Shown here one piece after another: positions 2,953-30,617 of a stretch of DNA of 33,653 nucleotides (position 1 is its first letter; each line of letters opens with the position of its first letter). The DNA comes from Verrucomicrobiota bacterium (GTDB lineage Bacteria > Verrucomicrobiota > Verrucomicrobiia > Chthoniobacterales > UBA10450). The notes under the pieces are model-generated. The model saw only the letters and a list, made by a program, of their open reading frames with translations. It was not told where the DNA came from and did not search any database. The stretch is taken from assembly GCA_003220075.1 (NCBI GenBank), contig QHRJ01000004.1, positions 1 to 33,653 on the forward strand, in the 5' to 3' direction. Both the position numbers and the translations under genes were made by a program.

Positions 2953-3006
2953 ATATCGCCCGCTTTTCTTATGCTCGTATTTCTATCTCAAACATCGTCC
3001 CGAATG

Positions 3007-3057
3007 GAACACAGGTCTGAGACCTGTGTGGCGCACAGGCTTTCAAGCCTGTGTTCC
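3007..3057. repeat. Palindromic element, GGAACACAG...CTGTGTTCC type (two nested hairpins)
   Basis: gaacacaggtctgagacctgtgtggcgcacaggctttcaagcctgtgttcc: hairpins ACAGGTCTgAGACCTGT and ACAGGCTTtcAAGCCTGT inside outer GGAACACAG/CTGTGTTCC arms. Confidence 0.9.
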
Positions 3058-7925: not shown

Positions 7926-10900
7926 GTGGGTTCGAAGGTCGTCGAAAAAAATTGCGCCTCCCCGAAAGCTTTCGGAGCTGCGCGCGGGTGTGTCGAAATC
8001 CGCGGTGCTCGCCAGAATAACCTCAAAGGCATCGATCTCGATCTTCCGCTTGGAAAGCTGACCGTTGTCACTGGCCCGAGTGGAAGCGGAAAGTCTTCGC
8101 TCGCTTTCGACACAATCTATGCCGAAGGGCAGCGCCGCTACGTCGAAACCTTCAGTCCTTACATGCGGCAATTCCTCGAGCGCATGGATAAACCGCGGGT
8201 CGAGGACATTCGCGGAATTCCGCCAGCGATCGCGATCGAGCAATCGAACCTGGTAAAGACGTCACGCTCCAGCGTTGGCACCATCACGGAGATCAACGAT
8301 TTCTTGAAGCTATTTTGGACCCGCACGGCGCGCGCGTTCTGTCCAAGCTGCGGCCGCGAAATTCGCCCCGAAACGGCGAAGACGATCTCGGATCAAGTGC
8401 TCGCATTGTTCGCGGTTCGTCATTCAGAAGGTAACGCCGGTGCACAAACCATTCTCATCACCTTCTGGGTCGCCGTTTCGGCGAAGGCCAAACCGCGCGA
8501 GTTTTTCCAGTTTCTTCAGCAACAAGGCTACCTGCGTGTTTGGCTGAACAACAAAATCATCCGCGTAGATAGCGACGCAAAAGTCGAGCGCCTCGGCGCG
8601 CGCGTTCAAGTCATCCAGGATCGCATCGTCGTCAGCGAGGAAAATCGTGCGCGATTAACTGAGGCCATCGAGATAGCGCTTCGTTTCGGTAAGGGCAAAA
8701 TCAACGTCATTCCGTTTCCTGCGGAGGCAGGTGCGTCGCCTGCAATTTCGAAGACCGCGGTCGACGCGGCCGCCGCTACAGGTCACGAATTCCCATTCTC
8801 CACCGGCTGGCACTGCGCGCATTGCGATCTCGACATTCGACCGCCTACGTCGGGGCTTTTCAGCTTCAATAATCCACTTGGCGCGTGTCCGGAATGCCGT
8901 GGGTTCGGTCGCACCATCGCGATCGATCTGAATCGCGCGATTCCGGACCGATCCCTCTCGATCGCGCAAGGGGTGGTGCGCGTTTTTCGCGGGCAGGAAA
9001 TGGGCGAATCGCAAAAGGATCTGCTGCGTGCCTGTGCCCGCGAGGAGATCGATGTGCATAGGCCTTTCGAGGAACTGCCCAAGGCCGATCAGGATTTTGT
9101 CATTAACGGCGAGAAACATGCGGGCGAATACACCGATGACGATTACGAAAATAATCGCTGGTACGGAGTGCGCGGTTTCTTTCGCTGGCTCGAATCGAAG
9201 ACTTACAAAATGCACGTGCGCGTGCTGCTCAGTCGCTATCGCGCTTATGTAAAATGTCCAAGCTGTGACGGTGGACGCTACCAACCGGAGACGCTGAATT
9301 ACAAATTGGAGGGACGCGCGCCGTCGCGTCCCAAGAATGGTGCCGACAGCGCGGCGCCCTCCAAGCTCACTCTCCCCCAATTCGCCGCCCTCCCGATTTC
9401 TGACGCGCGCGATTTACTGGCGCACATCGAAATCGCGCCGGATGACAGCACTGCGGAAATGCTGCGCAACGAAATTTGCGCGCGACTCCGTTACCTTTGC
9501 GAAGTCGGCGTCGGTTATCTCACCCTCGATCGTTCCACTCGCACCCTGAGCGGCGGCGAAATGCAGCGGGTCAATCTCACCACCTGCCTCGGCGCGTCGC
9601 TCGTGAACACGCTCTTCGTCATGGACGAACCAAGCGTTGGATTGCATCCGCGCGACGTCGGGCGGCTCGTGCGAGTGATGCACAACCTGCGCGATAAAGG
9701 CAACACCTTGCTCGTGGTCGAGCACGATGAACAAATCATCCGCGCAGCGGACAATTTGATCGACATCGGCCCCGGTCGCGGCGAACGCGGTGGCGAGTTG
9801 GTCTTCATCGGTCCGCTCGATGAATTTGTAGGTAGATCCCTCACGCGCGATTACCTGAGCGGTCGCAAATCCATCCCGATCCCAAAATCACGGCGGAAAT
9901 TCACTTCTGTGGTCAAAATTGCCGGCGCGATTGAGCACAATCTCAAGAACGTCGATGTCGAAATCCCACTCGGAATTTTTACCGCCATTACTGGCGTTTC
10001 CGGCTCGGGAAAATCGACCCTGATTCAGGATATATTGTATCGAAATCTTTTGCGGGCGAAGGGCCAACCAAGCGAACACGAGCCGGGCGCATGCCGGAGA
10101 GTGACTGGCGCACATCGCTTCAACGAAATTGTCATGGTCGATCAATCGCCACTGGCGCGCACCCCGCGTTCGACGCCCATCTTGTATCTTGGGCTTTATG
10201 ATCGGGTGCGCGAACTTTTCGCCGCCTTGCCGGAAGCGCAGGCGCAAGGACTGACCGCGAGCGCATTTTCGTTCAATTCCGGGACCGGCCGTTGCGAACG
10301 TTGCAACGGCACCGGTTTCGAGAAAATCGAGATGCAGTTTTTGAGTGATCTTTATGTCCGTTGCGCGGAATGCGAAGGCAAACGCTTCCAGCCTCACGTG
10401 CTCAAAATTCAGCTCCACGGAAAATCGATTCACGATGTGCTCGAACTTACGGTTACGGAAGCGGCCGCCTGGTTTGCCCAGATCGGCGAGGGCGAAAGAT
10501 TATCCGACCCGCTGGAAGTTCTCGAAGAAGTCGGGCTTGGTTATCTTCGGCTTGGCCAACCGCTCAACACTTTGTCCGGAGGCGAATCGCAGCGTCTAAA
10601 ACTCGTTAGTCACCTTGCTGACACATCTGGGGTGGCGGGCGTGTCGCCTGCGAACAAAAACCGTGCAGCCGGCACGGCTGCCTCTACAGAAAAAACCGCG
10701 AATCTCTTTATCTTCGACGAACCAACCACCGGACTGCATTTCGATGATGTCGCGATTTTATTGCGATTGTTCCAGCGATTAATCGATGCCGGGCAGTCGC
10801 TCGTGGTGATCGAGCATAACCTCGAAGTGATTAAATGCGCCGACTGGATCATCGATCTCGGACCCGAAGCGGGCGAGGAGGGCGGTGAAGTTGTTGCCGT

Positions 10901-13871
10901 TGGAACACCAGAACAGATTGCGAAGGTTGAGCGCTCGCATACGGGAAGGTTCTTGAGGAGCGTCATCCCGAGCGCAGTCGAGGGATCCCGTCGCAAAAAC
11001 TTCAAGGTAACGCAACGGGATCCTTCGACTCCGCTGCGCTACGCTCAGGATGACGGGGAGGAATTTGCGTTACGCGTCGCGGAAGAGCCGTCCGGCAGAA
11101 TGCTCGCGCGCTCCCGACAAAATATCGCGAGCGGCGCCATCCAAATTCATGGCGCGCGCGAGCATAATTTGAAAAACATCGATGTCGCGATCCCGCGCGA
11201 CCAGATGGTCGTGATCACCGGCCTGAGCGGGTCAGGAAAATCAACGCTCGCTTTCGACATTTTGTTCTCGGAAGGCCAGCGCCGCTTTCTCGACAGCATG
11301 TCTCCCTATGCCCGACAATTCGTCGAGCAACTGGAAAAACCGGACGTCGATCTGGTCGAAGGGTTGCCGCCGAGCGTCGCGATCGAGCAGCGTGTCACAC
11401 GCGGGGGCGGGAAATCAACCGTCGCGACGGTGACGGAAGTTTATCATTTCCTGCGGTTGCTCTTTGCCAAAACCGGCACGCAATTCTGTCCGGATTGCAA
11501 TCTGCCGGTCGAAAAACAAACTCTGGCTGCAATCGTAAAACAAGTGGAGGCGGCCACCCGCCGTGGTCCACTCAAGGTGCTGGCGCCGCTGGTAAAGGCG
11601 CGCAAGGGGTTTCACACCGATGTCGCGCGTTGGGCGGAGCGCAATGGATTCGACGCCCTTTTGGTCGACGGGCAGCTCGTTCCGGTGGAGCAGTTCCGCA
11701 GGCTTGAGCGTTTCAAGGAACATACCATCGACGTCCTTGTCGGTGTAATCGACAAGAAGCGGATCGCCAAGGCGCGCAATCTCAGCCAGCGCGCGCTCGA
11801 GATTGGTCGCGGCACCGCCCGCCTCGTCGATGCGAAAAATCGAGTCACGGTCATGAGCACGGAGATGAGTTGTCCGGGTTGCGGGCGCGCCTTCGAAGAA
11901 CTCGATCCGCGATTGTTTTCATTCAATTCGCCGCACGGTGCCTGCGAAGAATGCGGCGGCTTTGGCGAAATCTGGAACCAATCGCTCCAAGTTGGCGGAA
12001 GCGAGGATGGCGAATCAGTCCTCGAAAACGAGCTGACCGCCGAACGTGAATCGGAATGGATCGACGAAAGTGAAGCGCAGATCTGCCCGGCTTGCCACGG
12101 CTCGCGTCTGAACGCGGTCGCGCGTCACGTGCGCGTGCAAAATATGACGATCGACGATTTTTCGGCGCTTTCCGCCGCCACTGCTGCCAAGCAAATCGGA
12201 CGATTAAAATTTAGCGGCAAACAAAAAACCATCGCGAACGAATTGATTCCGGAAATAGTGCAGCGCCTTCGATTCATGAAGAATGTCGGTCTCGGCTATT
12301 TGTCGTTAGGTCGATCGGCCAAGACTTTGAGTGGCGGTGAATCTCAGCGGATTCGCCTGGCGGCGCAGCTCGGCTCGAATTTGCGTGGCGTCCTCTACGT
12401 GCTGGATGAACCGACCATTGGTTTGCATCCGCGCGATAATGTGCGGCTGCTCGAGACGCTGGCCGCATTGCGCGCAAAAGGGAACTCACTCGTCATTGTC
12501 GAGCATGACGAAGCAACCATGCGTCGCGCCGACCACATCATTGATCTCGGCCCGCGCGCCGGGATTCACGGCGGCGAAGTTGTGGCCAGCGGATCGCTGC
12601 GTGAAATCGAGCGCGCGAAAGATTCCGAGACCGGACGTTGTCTAAAAACGCCGCTCTGCCATCCCATTCGCAAATCGCGGCGAAGCCTGCGCGCTGTTGC
12701 GAGTTGGGTCGAGATCAGGAATGCGCGGGCGAACAATCTGAAAAACATCGAGGTGAAGTTTCCCGTCGGTCGCTTGTCGGTCATCACCGGAATTTCCGGC
12801 AGCGGCAAATCCACCTTAATGGGCGACGTCCTTTTACCGGCCGTGCATGAGCAACTAAATCGAAAACGTCAACGCACCGGCGAGTTATTCGAGCGAGTTG
12901 AAGGCATGGAGGCGATCGATGCGGTTTACGAAGTCGATCAATCACCCATCGGGAAAACTTCGCGCTCGACCCCAGCAACCTACATCAAAGTCTTCGATGA
13001 GATTCGCAATCTTTACGCACAAGTTCCGGTTGCGCGCATGCGCGGTTACGGCCCGAGCCGGTTCTCCTTCAACGCCGAGGGCGGACGTTGCGAGTCGTGC
13101 AAGGGCCAGGGCATGATCAAATTGGAGATGAATTTTCTGCCGAGCACCTACGTGCCCTGTGAAGATTGCGGCGGGAAACGTTACAACGCCCAGACTCTCG
13201 AAGTTCTTTACCATGAAAAATCGATCGGGGACGTAATGGAAATGACGATCGAAGAAGCGGCCGAATTTTTCAAAGCCAACCCCAAGGTCGCGCGATCCCT
13301 TTCACTGCTCGTCGATACCGGACTCGGTTATCTAAAGCTGGGGCAGCCGAGCCCGACTTTGAGCGGCGGCGAAGCGCAACGGCTGAAGCTAGCGACTGAG
13401 CTAACCCGCGGGATCGGCCGCGTGCAAAACGAACGGATCCGTAAAATGCGCCGACCGAAATCGACGCTCTATCTACTAGAGGAACCGACGATTGGGTTGC
13501 ACATGGCCGATGTTGAATTGCTGCTGAACTTGCTGCACCGGCTGGTAGATGACGGTCATACCGTCATCGTGATTGAGCACAATCTCAGCGTAATCGCGGA
13601 AGCGGATTACATTGTCGATATCGGTCCGGAAGCCGGCGAGGCCGGCGGTGAGATCGTTGCCACCGGGACACCGGAGCAGGTCGCAAAAAGCCGGCTGAGC
13701 CGCACCGCGCCATTCTTGCGGGAAGTTCTGGCGACGAAGAATGACGGCGCCGTAAGACCGAGCTGGCGCAAGAACGGAGAACCCTCACCTGGCGCTTCGC
13801 GTACGGTCTCCCGCCGGAATTCCCAAGACACCCGCGACCTATGTCCTCCTCTCCCTGTGGGAGAGGATTGA
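7926..13871 (+). CDS. uvrA: Giant tandem excinuclease ABC subunit A (two UvrA copies fused, four ABC modules)
   Basis: Four Walker A motifs ([48 protein letters not shown]), four signatures ([44 protein letters not shown]) and paired UvrA zinc fingers (CERCNGTG...CAECEGKRF and CESCKGQG...CEDCGGKRY). Confidence 0.95.
8719..8783. repeat. In-frame repeat-like insertion in uvrA (gcggaggcaggtgcgtcgcctgc ... gcggccgccgctacagg)
   Basis: Translates as low-complexity [21 protein letters not shown] inside a conserved UvrA region; core resembles the repeat at 10631-10690 (GTGTCGCCTGC / GTGCGTCGCCTGC). Confidence 0.65.
9307..9363. repeat. In-frame palindromic insertion in uvrA (ggagggacgcgcgcc ... ggcgccctcc)
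   Basis: ggagggacgcgcgccgtcgcgtcccaagaatggtgccgacagcgcggcgccctcc: arms GGAGGG...GCGCGCC / GGCGCCCTCC; translates as [19 protein letters not shown]. Confidence 0.75.
10631..10690. repeat. In-frame repeat-like insertion in uvrA between an ABC signature and Walker B
   Basis: ggtggcgggcgtgtcgcctgcgaacaaaaaccgtgcagccggcacggctgcctctacag; translates as [19 protein letters not shown]; internal GCAGCCGgCACGGCTGC hairpin. Confidence 0.75.
10961..11055. repeat. In-frame CGTCATCCCGAGCG...GATGACG palindromic element in the uvrA inter-copy linker
   Basis: cgtcatcccgagcgcagtcgagggatcccg ... cgggatccttcgactccgctgcgctacgctcaggatgacg; same family as 20992-21082 and 30761-30857. Confidence 0.92.
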
Positions 13872-28111: not shown

Positions 28112-28222
28112 CCGGGTAGCGCACGCGTGTTGGCGATGGCGTCCTCGCTATCGCGGACTTCTCTGAAAAGACTGTTTCGGCGAGACGCCGAAACCAACAC
28201 GCGAGACGCGTGCGCTACCCGG
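28112..28222. repeat. Palindromic intergenic element, CCGGGTAGCGCACGCG...CGCGTGCGCTACCCGG type
   Basis: Arms ccgggtagcgcacgcgtgttgg and ccaacacgcgagacgcgtgcgctacccgg; internal GTTTCGGCGagaCGCCGAAAC hairpin. Confidence 0.92.
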
Positions 28223-28268
28223 GCAAGACCATTGCGTGCCCGCGAGTTCAGCGGAACCTTTGCGGCTC

Positions 28269-30617
28269 ATGAGGGTCCTCATTGCAATCAGTTTTGCGCT
28301 CACGACATCACTTCTCGGACAAACGCCAGCGCCCGCTATTTCCAGCGGCAAACATCCTTTCACTTTCGAAGACATGATGAAGCTCAAACGCGTCGGCGCG
28401 CCCGTGCCGTCCCCGGATGGGTTATGGGTCGTGTTCGATGCGGAAGATGTCGATCTGGAGGCGAACGTAAAAATTTCGCATTTGTGGATCGTGCCGGCGC
28501 AAGGAGGAGAATCGCGCCGGCTCAACCCGACTCCAAACCATGAGGAACGACCACGTTTTTCTCCCGATGGCAAACGGCTCATTTGGACGTCGAAAGCGAC
28601 CGATCCGACGCAAATCTGGATGTGCGACTTTGATACGAATGCGGGAGGCCTCATTGGTCAGCCGCATCAGCTGACAAACATTTCGACCGGCGCGGAAGGC
28701 GCGATCTGGTCGCCGGACGGGAAGAACATCGTGTTCGTGTCGGCGGTGTATCCAGATTGCAAGGATGACCCGTGCAACAAGCAGCGCGACGACGAACTGA
28801 AAAACAGCAAAGTGAAAGCTAAGACTTTCACGCGCTTGTTTTATCGGCATTGGAACGCGTTCACCGAATTCAAGCGCAGTCATTTGTTTGTCGTTAGCGC
28901 GGATGCAACCGCCGACCGGAACACAGACTCGCAGTCTGTGCGCCCAGCGGAGTTGAACTCCGCTGAATCCGACAAAACCCAGACAGCGGAGAGCATCTCC
29001 GCTGGGCGCACAGGGCAGAGCCCCGTGTTCCGACAGCCGCGCGATCTCACCCCGGGGGATCACGATGTCCCGCCGTTCCATCTCGGTGGGCAGGACATGT
29101 ATGCGATTTCGCCTGACGGCCAGGAGGTGGCTTACACCAGCAACATCAACGAAGTGGAGGCGACCAGCACGAACAACGAAATTTTCATCGTGCCGATGGC
29201 CGGCGGCGCAGCCAAGAAAATTTCCACCAGTCCCGGCAACGATTCGACCCCGCTCTATTCCCCGGACGGAAAATACATCGCCTGGCGATCGCAAGCGCGC
29301 GCCGGCTTCGAGGCGGATAAATGGCGGCTCTTCGTGCAAGATCGACAATCAGGGAAGACGCGCGATCTGACTGAGAAGTTTGATCGCTCGGTCGGCAGCT
29401 ACACTTGGACAATCACGCCCGCGCCGTATGACAAGCCAATCAGACCGATAATTTTCTCTGCCGAAGATCACGGCGAAGCGCCGCTGTTTTATAATGATGT
29501 CGAGGGCGATGAGCCGCCGATAAGATATGGCGGCTTGCATGCCGACGATCTGATCTTCGCAAAGAGCTCAGCTGAAATCGGCAGTTTGTATTTCGCGAAT
29601 ATGTCGATCCAAGCGCCAAATGAAATTTGGCGAATGGATTTTCCTTCACCGAAAGGCAAAGTTGGTTCAGAGCCCGTCACGCACATGAACGACGCGCTGC
29701 TGTCGCAGATCGACATGCAGCCGCTGGAATCGTTCACGTTTAAGGGTGCGAATAACGACGATGTGCAGGGATTGATGGTTAAGCCGCCGGGATTCGATCC
29801 GGCGAAGAAATATCCGCTGAAATTTTTGATTCACGGCGGGCCACAAGGGGCCTGGGGAAATTCGTGGACGTATCGCTGGAACGCGGAGTTGTTCGCGGCG
29901 CCATCTTCGCCGCAGTCGGTAGGGCGAGAATCTGTCGAGCGGAAATCCGGTACATCGCCTGACGGCTCGACGGAGTCTTCCCCTACCAAAGCAAACTCGT
30001 CTCTCGCGAATGGTGCCACGGACGGCTACGTCGTCGTGATGATCAATTTCCATGGCTCCACCGGATACGGGCAGAAGTTTACCGACTCGATCAGCGGAGA
30101 TTGGGGCGGGAAACCGTATGTCGATCTAACGAAGGGCCTCGATTATGTCGAAAAAACATATCCGTTCATCGACAAAAATCGCGAGGCTGCGCTGGGCGCG
30201 AGCTATGGCGGTTACATGGCCAACTGGTTGCTAGGCCACACCGATCGTTTCAAGTGCATCGTGTCGCACGACGGGATTTTCAATACGGAATCTGGTTACG
30301 GAACGACGGAAGAGCTTTGGTTCCCGGAATGGGAGTTCAAAGGGCCGCCGTGGAAACAGCGCGAGCTTTACCGGAAATTTTCGCCACACCTCTTCGCCGA
30401 GAAATTCAAAACGCCGACGCTGGTGATCCATGGACAGAATGATTATCGACTCGATGTCAGTGAAGGGTTTCAGCTCTTCAGCACGCTTCAGCGACTAAAG
30501 GTGCCCTCAAAGATGTTGTATTTCCCGGATGAAGGGCACTGGGTGTTGAAGCCGCAGAATTCGCAGCTGTGGTACAAAACGGTGAACGACTGGGTGGATC
30601 AGTGGTGCGGGAAGTAA
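28269..30617 (+). CDS. S9 family prolyl oligopeptidase / acylaminoacyl-peptidase with signal peptide
   Basis: Signal-like MRVLIAISFALTTSLLG; WD40-like beta-propeller repeats (SPDGKNIVFVS, SPDGKYIAWRS); catalytic GASYGGYMANWLLGH, HGQNDYRLDV and DEGHWV. Confidence 0.93.
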   Translation: MRVLIAISFALTTSLLGQTPAPAISSGKHPFTFEDMMKLKRVGAPVPSPDGLWVVFDAEDVDLEANVKISHLWIVPAQGGESRRLNPTPNHEERPRFSPDGKRLIWTSKATDPTQIWMCDFDTNAGGLIGQPHQLTNISTGAEGAIWSPDGKNIVFVSAVYPDCKDDPCNKQRDDELKNSKVKAKTFTRLFYRHWNAFTEFKRSHLFVVSADATADRNTDSQSVRPAELNSAESDKTQTAESISAGRTGQSPVFRQPRDLTPGDHDVPPFHLGGQDMYAISPDGQEVAYTSNINEVEATSTNNEIFIVPMAGGAAKKISTSPGNDSTPLYSPDGKYIAWRSQARAGFEADKWRLFVQDRQSGKTRDLTEKFDRSVGSYTWTITPAPYDKPIRPIIFSAEDHGEAPLFYNDVEGDEPPIRYGGLHADDLIFAKSSAEIGSLYFANMSIQAPNEIWRMDFPSPKGKVGSEPVTHMNDALLSQIDMQPLESFTFKGANNDDVQGLMVKPPGFDPAKKYPLKFLIHGGPQGAWGNSWTYRWNAELFAAPSSPQSVGRESVERKSGTSPDGSTESSPTKANSSLANGATDGYVVVMINFHGSTGYGQKFTDSISGDWGGKPYVDLTKGLDYVEKTYPFIDKNREAALGASYGGYMANWLLGHTDRFKCIVSHDGIFNTESGYGTTEELWFPEWEFKGPPWKQRELYRKFSPHLFAEKFKTPTLVIHGQNDYRLDVSEGFQLFSTLQRLKVPSKMLYFPDEGHWVLKPQNSQLWYKTVNDWVDQWCGK
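28919..29034. repeat. In-frame GGAACACAG...CGTGTTCC palindromic element in the S9 peptidase gene
   Basis: cggaacacagactcgcagtctgtgcgcccagcggagttgaactccgctg ... cagcggagagcatctccgctgggcgcacagggcagagccccgtgttccg; several nested hairpins, same outer ends as 3007-3057. Confidence 0.93.
29918..29987. repeat. In-frame GGTAGGGCGAGAATCTGTCGAGC...GCTCGACGGAGTCTTCCCCTACC element in the S9 peptidase gene
   Basis: The left arm and the reverse complement of the right arm (ggtaggggaagactccgtcgagc) agree at most positions; translates as VGRESVERKSGTSPDGSTESSPTK. Confidence 0.88.

Follow-up and report, generated by a model that had tools for sequence, protein, structure and literature searches.

The 114-bp nested-hairpin segment that lies in frame within a Dpp5-type S9 peptidase gene is, with a probability of roughly 0.8, a non-autonomous REPIN-like mobile element of the transposase RAYT-A, the REPIN and the RAYT both being kept where they land in frame and the RAYT being translated as a domain of its host. 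In the source genome and one relative, this RAYT, which is under purifying selection and has no gene of its own, lies within the sole copy found of a core gene and is bounded by the repeat that populates the genome.

The window (the whole stretch of DNA analysed; 33,653 nucleotides) contains one copy of the long form of this repeat (LONG), one copy of its two-hairpin form (SHORT) and a REPIN of a second family (Table 1). An earlier note on this DNA had placed the long copy at 28919–29034; the element is real, and those limits were off by 1–3 bases. It consists of a 48-bp half-unit, an 18-bp spacer and a second, inverted half-unit, with two hairpins in each half-unit. The outer inverted repeat of 28918–29031 is CGGAACAC/GTGTTCCG, an inner inverted repeat of 30 nt (28936–28965/28984–29013) is 90% complementary, and further inner inverted repeats lie at 28945–28954/28956–28965 and 28984–28992/28996–29004. 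The folding z-score was about −10 for either strand, and none of 200 shuffles folded equally well; together with the mapped inverted repeats, this bears out the description of a nested-hairpin element in frame in an S9 peptidase gene. The host open reading frame matched Pfam Peptidase_S9 and PD40 above their cut-offs and NCBIfam NF053518 below its cut-off, and the element continues its frame (RNTDSQSVRPAELNSAESDKTQTAESISAGRTGQSPVFR).

Table 1 Coordinates of the repeat elements, their parts and the host gene in the window
Feature	Position	Strand	Details
SHORT (two-hairpin) family member, intergenic	3006..3057	+	Same ends as the LONG element
GTAG-tagged REPIN, family B, intergenic	28114..28220	+	Directly upstream of the Dpp5 host gene
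Host gene, Dpp5-type S9 prolyl oligopeptidase family protein	28236..30617	+	793 aa
LONG element	28918..29031	+	114 bp, 38 codons; in frame in the Dpp5 gene; peptide RNTDSQSVRPAELNSAES...SAGRTGQSPVFR
Left half-unit	28918..28965	+	GGAACACAG-h1-CTGTGCGCC-CAGCGG-h2-CCGCTG; alignment A1; model R1 match, 70.2 bits
Hairpin 1	28923..28939	+	ACAGACT-cgc-AGTCTGT
Hairpin 2	28945..28965	+	CAGCGGAGTT-g-AACTCCGCTG
Spacer separating the half-units	28966..28983	+	18 bp
Right half-unit, inverted	28984..29031	-	Model R1 match, 67.8 bits
Hairpin 3	28984..29004	+	CAGCGGAGA-gca-TCTCCGCTG
Hairpin 4	29010..29026	+	CAGGGC-aga-GCCCCG region; mirrors hairpin 1

The loop that holds the element differs among Dpp5 orthologues. 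In the nearest sampled orthologue without an insert (genome G001), the loop is 48 bp long and has no strong palindrome, as expected from the earlier proposal that the element replaces a short S9 loop. At least five other orthologues have different palindromic inserts in the same loop: a GTAGCACAG-type element in G004 and G009, where it is also dispersed (27 tag–hairpin sites in each genome), and other nested palindromes in G010, G005 and G006. Given that the palindromes differ between species, this single loop has acquired several repeat families. A normal domain of the S9 family was ruled out as the identity of the insert, on the basis of the short loop in G001 and the unrelated palindromes in other orthologues. 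Conservation of the segment at the protein level, named in advance as a finding that would count against a mobile element, was not seen across the Dpp5 orthologues. Elsewhere in the same gene, a second in-frame palindromic insert (SSPQSVGRESVERKSGTSPDGSTESSPTKANSS; window approximately 29904–29990) is missing from most aligned relatives. The window also encodes a UvrA-like frame of 1981 aa (7926–13871), apparently two tandem UvrA units, with several in-frame palindromic inserts (for example, 10614–10709 and 10959–11066).

The element belongs to a large family. The source genome (G000; 2.79 Mb, 370 contigs) contains 83 exact GGAACACAG sites, all of which we read in context, compared with 4 for a reversed control pattern, an excess well beyond chance. 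Strict matching yielded 25 LONG copies (spacers of 9–42 bp) and 9 SHORT copies, plus single half-units, so that the further copies on which the earlier note had staked its proposal exist in number. Its idea of a modular hairpin family stands, with the correction that hairpins are not gained at random: a two-hairpin half-unit is used singly, as an inverted pair (LONG) or in the SHORT form. The intergenic element that it had likened to this one (3007–3057 in its count) is kin, with the same ends and two hairpins. This short copy and two others (L056 and L060) share similar adjoining sequence (TTTTCAACA), and copies of this type may be part of a larger repeat. Pairing holds in 98.2% of the hairpin cells of 52 distinct half-units, and 81 cells have changed on both sides (27.3 in shuffles), so it is the structure of the hairpins that is maintained or copied, even as the cores vary. 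A half-unit covariance model found at least 140 matches in the source genome and from at least 136 down to 40 in seven congeners (up to 150 candidates scored per genome); 7 matches were found in G001, 6 in G005 and none in G006, and the exact core pattern was not found in nine sampled genomes of other genera.

Approximately 42 of the 61 copies in genome G000 are intergenic according to a weak coding score that separates poorly and was used roughly, which makes in-frame residence a minority outcome for the small element. Inspection of open frames identified six in-frame genic copies—the Dpp5 copy, two in mqnA, one in a NuoL-like protein (read from sequence), and half-units in an unnamed gene and in a methyltransferase-like gene—and five of the six use the same frame (NTDxxSVRPAE...). 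Frames were open in 76 of 150 cases across LONG copies, compared with 25–30% in shuffles; as all copies have one consensus in common, this excess carries no weight as proof of selection. A consistent target duplication was not found among several copies inspected by eye. In build, the family is that of REPINs, that is, two inverted REP palindromes around a short spacer, dispersed through the genome; its tag is GGAA rather than GTAG, the tag carried by sister families B and C of the same genus. A cognate RAYT flanked by the same repeat occurs in the mqnA cassettes of G000 and G002 and in a carB cassette (L187).

In G000, one Y1_Tnp match (contig C318) is bounded on both sides by LONG copies, which are directly oriented. 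A single open frame of 530 aa takes in both repeats, the RAYT between them and the MqnA (chorismate dehydratase) sequence on either side, the cassette entering a loop that corresponds to the region between residues ~129 and 148 of SCO4506. The gene mqnA serves in the synthesis of vitamin K2 (menaquinone). The same cassette is present in G002; in G004 (L170), part of the second LONG copy is missing, which breaks the frame of mqnA, through either decay or an assembly fault. Other genomes differ at this site: there is a half-unit in G003 and G010, a decayed remnant in G008, a different hairpin in G009 and neither cassette nor repeat in G001 and G006. Each genome with a match has only one mqnA N-terminus, meaning that in G000 and G002 the only detected mqnA carries the cassette. 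The RAYT lacks a free-standing gene or start of its own, being inside the mqnA frame, and retains the HUH motif (MPNHVH) and the invariant catalytic tyrosine of the Y1 HUH fold. It matches TnpA-REP 4er8 in sequence (1.1e-5) and in fold (7.1e-6; TMt 0.58). Against the curated NCBIfam family NF047646 it scored 76.2 bits, below the cut-off of 80, which RAYT-B of the source genome passes. Across one set of three genomes, dN/dS was 0.08–0.13 for the RAYT and 0.08–0.10 for the MqnA N-terminus. G009 and G007 each have more than 100 model matches and no RAYT-A at 90% identity (mqnA is intact without RAYT-A in G009 and cut off in G007), suggesting that their copies are relics or are served by another RAYT. 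Neither the linked RAYT nor its in-frame cassettes in core genes had figured in the earlier note, which also had nothing on the different palindrome families in the one Dpp5 loop.

In the relatives and named genomes searched, RAYTs close to that of mqnA are commonly located within host genes, of which carB is the main one. Leaving aside frames truncated at contig ends, carB frames fall into two classes, 1057–1165 aa when empty and 1325–1380 aa when a RAYT is present; the gene occurs once per genome, apart from two partial matches in G005 and a fragment in G014. The RAYT enters between residues 482 and 487 of Escherichia coli CarB, and the rest of the protein aligns normally. Many relatives have an empty carB. 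In G000, this site holds a different RAYT group flanked by the GTAG-type REP that also lies just upstream of the Dpp5 gene (28114–28220), and the same CarB loop has thus received two different RAYT groups. This family B group is embedded in both carB and recG of the source genome. A RAYT from the GTAG-repeat group lies in frame within recG in several genomes (L146, L138, L149, L150 and L152), and metH of G020 contains parts of two RAYTs (L151). Other hosts, read from sequence or named by Pfam, are metH, alaS, leuS, valS, tsaC, priA, xseA and cca/pcnB, as well as genes for adenosine deaminase, HsdR, Eco57I- and MmeI-type enzymes and an SNF2 helicase. Embedded RAYTs span Verrucomicrobiota, Kiritimatiellota, Planctomycetota, Chloroflexota, Ignavibacteriota, Bacteroidota and Pseudomonadota. 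The genomes are mostly draft MAGs; embedding occurs in several phyla and also in records not marked as MAGs (L193 and L197). Frames of more than 400 aa hold 44 of the best 80 RAYT loci; in a phylum-wide draw with a general RAYT family model, approximately 20 of approximately 150 among the matches listed were in such frames, which makes embedding a minority state across the phylum.

No ATG, GTG or TTG occurs within 30 codons upstream of the LPHW motif in 19 of 41 embedded RAYTs, compared with 2 of 31 stand-alone ones, and in nearly all of 23 embedded cases the flanking repeats (better of the direct and inverted scores) outscored every one of 60 shuffles. RAYTs group by host gene (22 changes for 17 labels; shuffled mean, 48.5) in a quick tree whose only support values are SH-aLRT, and the mqnA clade is nested within the carB clade with L187, in carB, as its sister (SH-aLRT 99). 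Repeats flanking the L187 RAYT encode the same peptide family as those of the mqnA cassette. The branching and the shared repeats are most readily explained by a transfer of the cassette from carB into mqnA. The CarB–RAYT segment of L187 was modelled with AlphaFold (overall pLDDT 69; CarB part shallowly sampled), which gave mostly 86–97 for the RAYT core and less than 50 for the two REP-encoded linkers, and the modelled RAYT domain matches 4er8.

We propose that the inverted half-units, each with a GGAA tag and two hairpins, are substrates of RAYT-A, a Y1 HUH single-strand transposase that would cleave and transpose them and would itself usually travel between two LONG copies. An insertion of either kind, small element or RAYT cassette, would be retained if it kept the reading frame and fell in a loop where the host protein tolerates it. 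There, translation would yield a single chain in which REP-encoded linkers hold the RAYT as a domain of the host protein (MqnA in this genome, CarB in relatives), and the host would keep its function. For known TnpA-REP enzymes, the substrate is a single-stranded REP folded into a hairpin, which they bind and cut beside the tag (PMC8266576); the GGAACACAG hairpins would be the analogous substrate of RAYT-A. As the cell needs the host gene, selection would act against any loss of the RAYT that breaks the frame, and this would favour the persistence of the RAYT and its REPIN population. We are evenly divided on the wider reading that embedding in host genes is a strategy of RAYT persistence, in which start-less, REPIN-bounded cassettes jump in frame between core genes (carB to mqnA) and are expressed only as domains of host proteins, their loss breaking the host, with small in-frame REPINs as by-products. 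If so, embedding in CarB, LeuS, ValS and RecG would be a simple, testable answer to how single-copy RAYTs and REPINs persist over millions of years, and some core proteins of soil Verrucomicrobia and other phyla would carry a transposase domain that annotation filters treat as a fusion error.

Alternatively, the repeats and embedded RAYTs could be passive relics—dead, immobile insertions in flexible loops that bring no benefit and appear in frame through survivorship. The intergenic majority of copies, the broken cassette of G004, the decayed half-units at the mqnA site of G003, G010 and G008 and the many copies that G009 retains without RAYT-A are consistent with this, and survivorship may still explain the small inserts. 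As a general account, we consider it unlikely: dN/dS of the RAYT is as low as that of the host N-terminus, its HUH motif and tyrosine are invariant, the diverse repeat cores nevertheless pair, and the cassette appears to have moved from carB to mqnA. Lower still we place removal of an intron- or intein-like cassette after transcription or translation (RNA excision, ribosome bypass over the nested hairpins or protein splicing), with the host made without it. The direct repeats around the RAYT and the nested hairpins at both ends would suit such removal, but in the intact cases repeats and RAYT are read in frame without a stop, a constraint that neither bypass nor RNA splicing would impose, and Pfam and NCBIfam scans of the fusions examined found no intein family. 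Least probable, by a small margin, is recruitment of the RAYT to a function for its host in CarB or MqnA, such as DNA sensing; co-option would account for the purifying selection and for the long persistence of a RAYT at one carB site in different genera, whereas the hosts are functionally unrelated (CarB, LeuS, HsdR, XseA, PriA and others), two different RAYT groups occupy the same CarB loop and carB is empty in many relatives.

The reading as a REPIN-like element with an embedded RAYT draws on known systems. In-frame REPs, Rickettsia palindromic elements and REPIN–RAYT pairs are already known; RAYTs carried in frame in core genes appear to be new, no report of them having been found in a literature search that missed most subscription journals. 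A survey of TnpA proteins set aside unexpectedly long ones, attributing them to fused genes or faulty annotation (PMC6006769); in the leading model of persistence, a REPIN copied into a gene is assumed to destroy that gene (PMC8049555). As in REPIN and RAYT/TnpA-REP systems (Bertels and Rainey 2011, PMC3116915; Nunvar 2010, PMC2817692; Corneloup 2021, PMC8266576), the repeats are dispersed inverted pairs of short palindromes, the transposase is a Y1 HUH enzyme with the REP_Tyr_transpos signature and the 4er8 fold, bordered by copies of its own palindrome, and the RAYT is under purifying selection. In contrast to those systems, each half-unit here has two hairpins, the tag is GGAA and not GTAG, cores vary with compensation, and the RAYT lies in frame inside mqnA or carB and not in a separate gene. 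REPs in frame in coding genes, including uvrA of Opitutus terrae (Verrucomicrobia), and TIR-associated RAYTs (TIRYTs), RAYT-like genes bordered by long inverted repeats, are described in PMC3733652, in whose passages on them no RAYT within a host gene was found. The Rickettsia palindromic elements (compare PMC3733652) are likewise palindromes in frame in many protein genes; their sequences and phylum differ. Inteins with homing endonucleases also place a mobility enzyme in frame in conserved host proteins, with the insertion site shared by several relatives; here, by contrast, the enzyme is an HUH transposase joined by repeat-encoded linkers, and the fusions examined have no Hint splicing domain in Pfam and NCBIfam scans.
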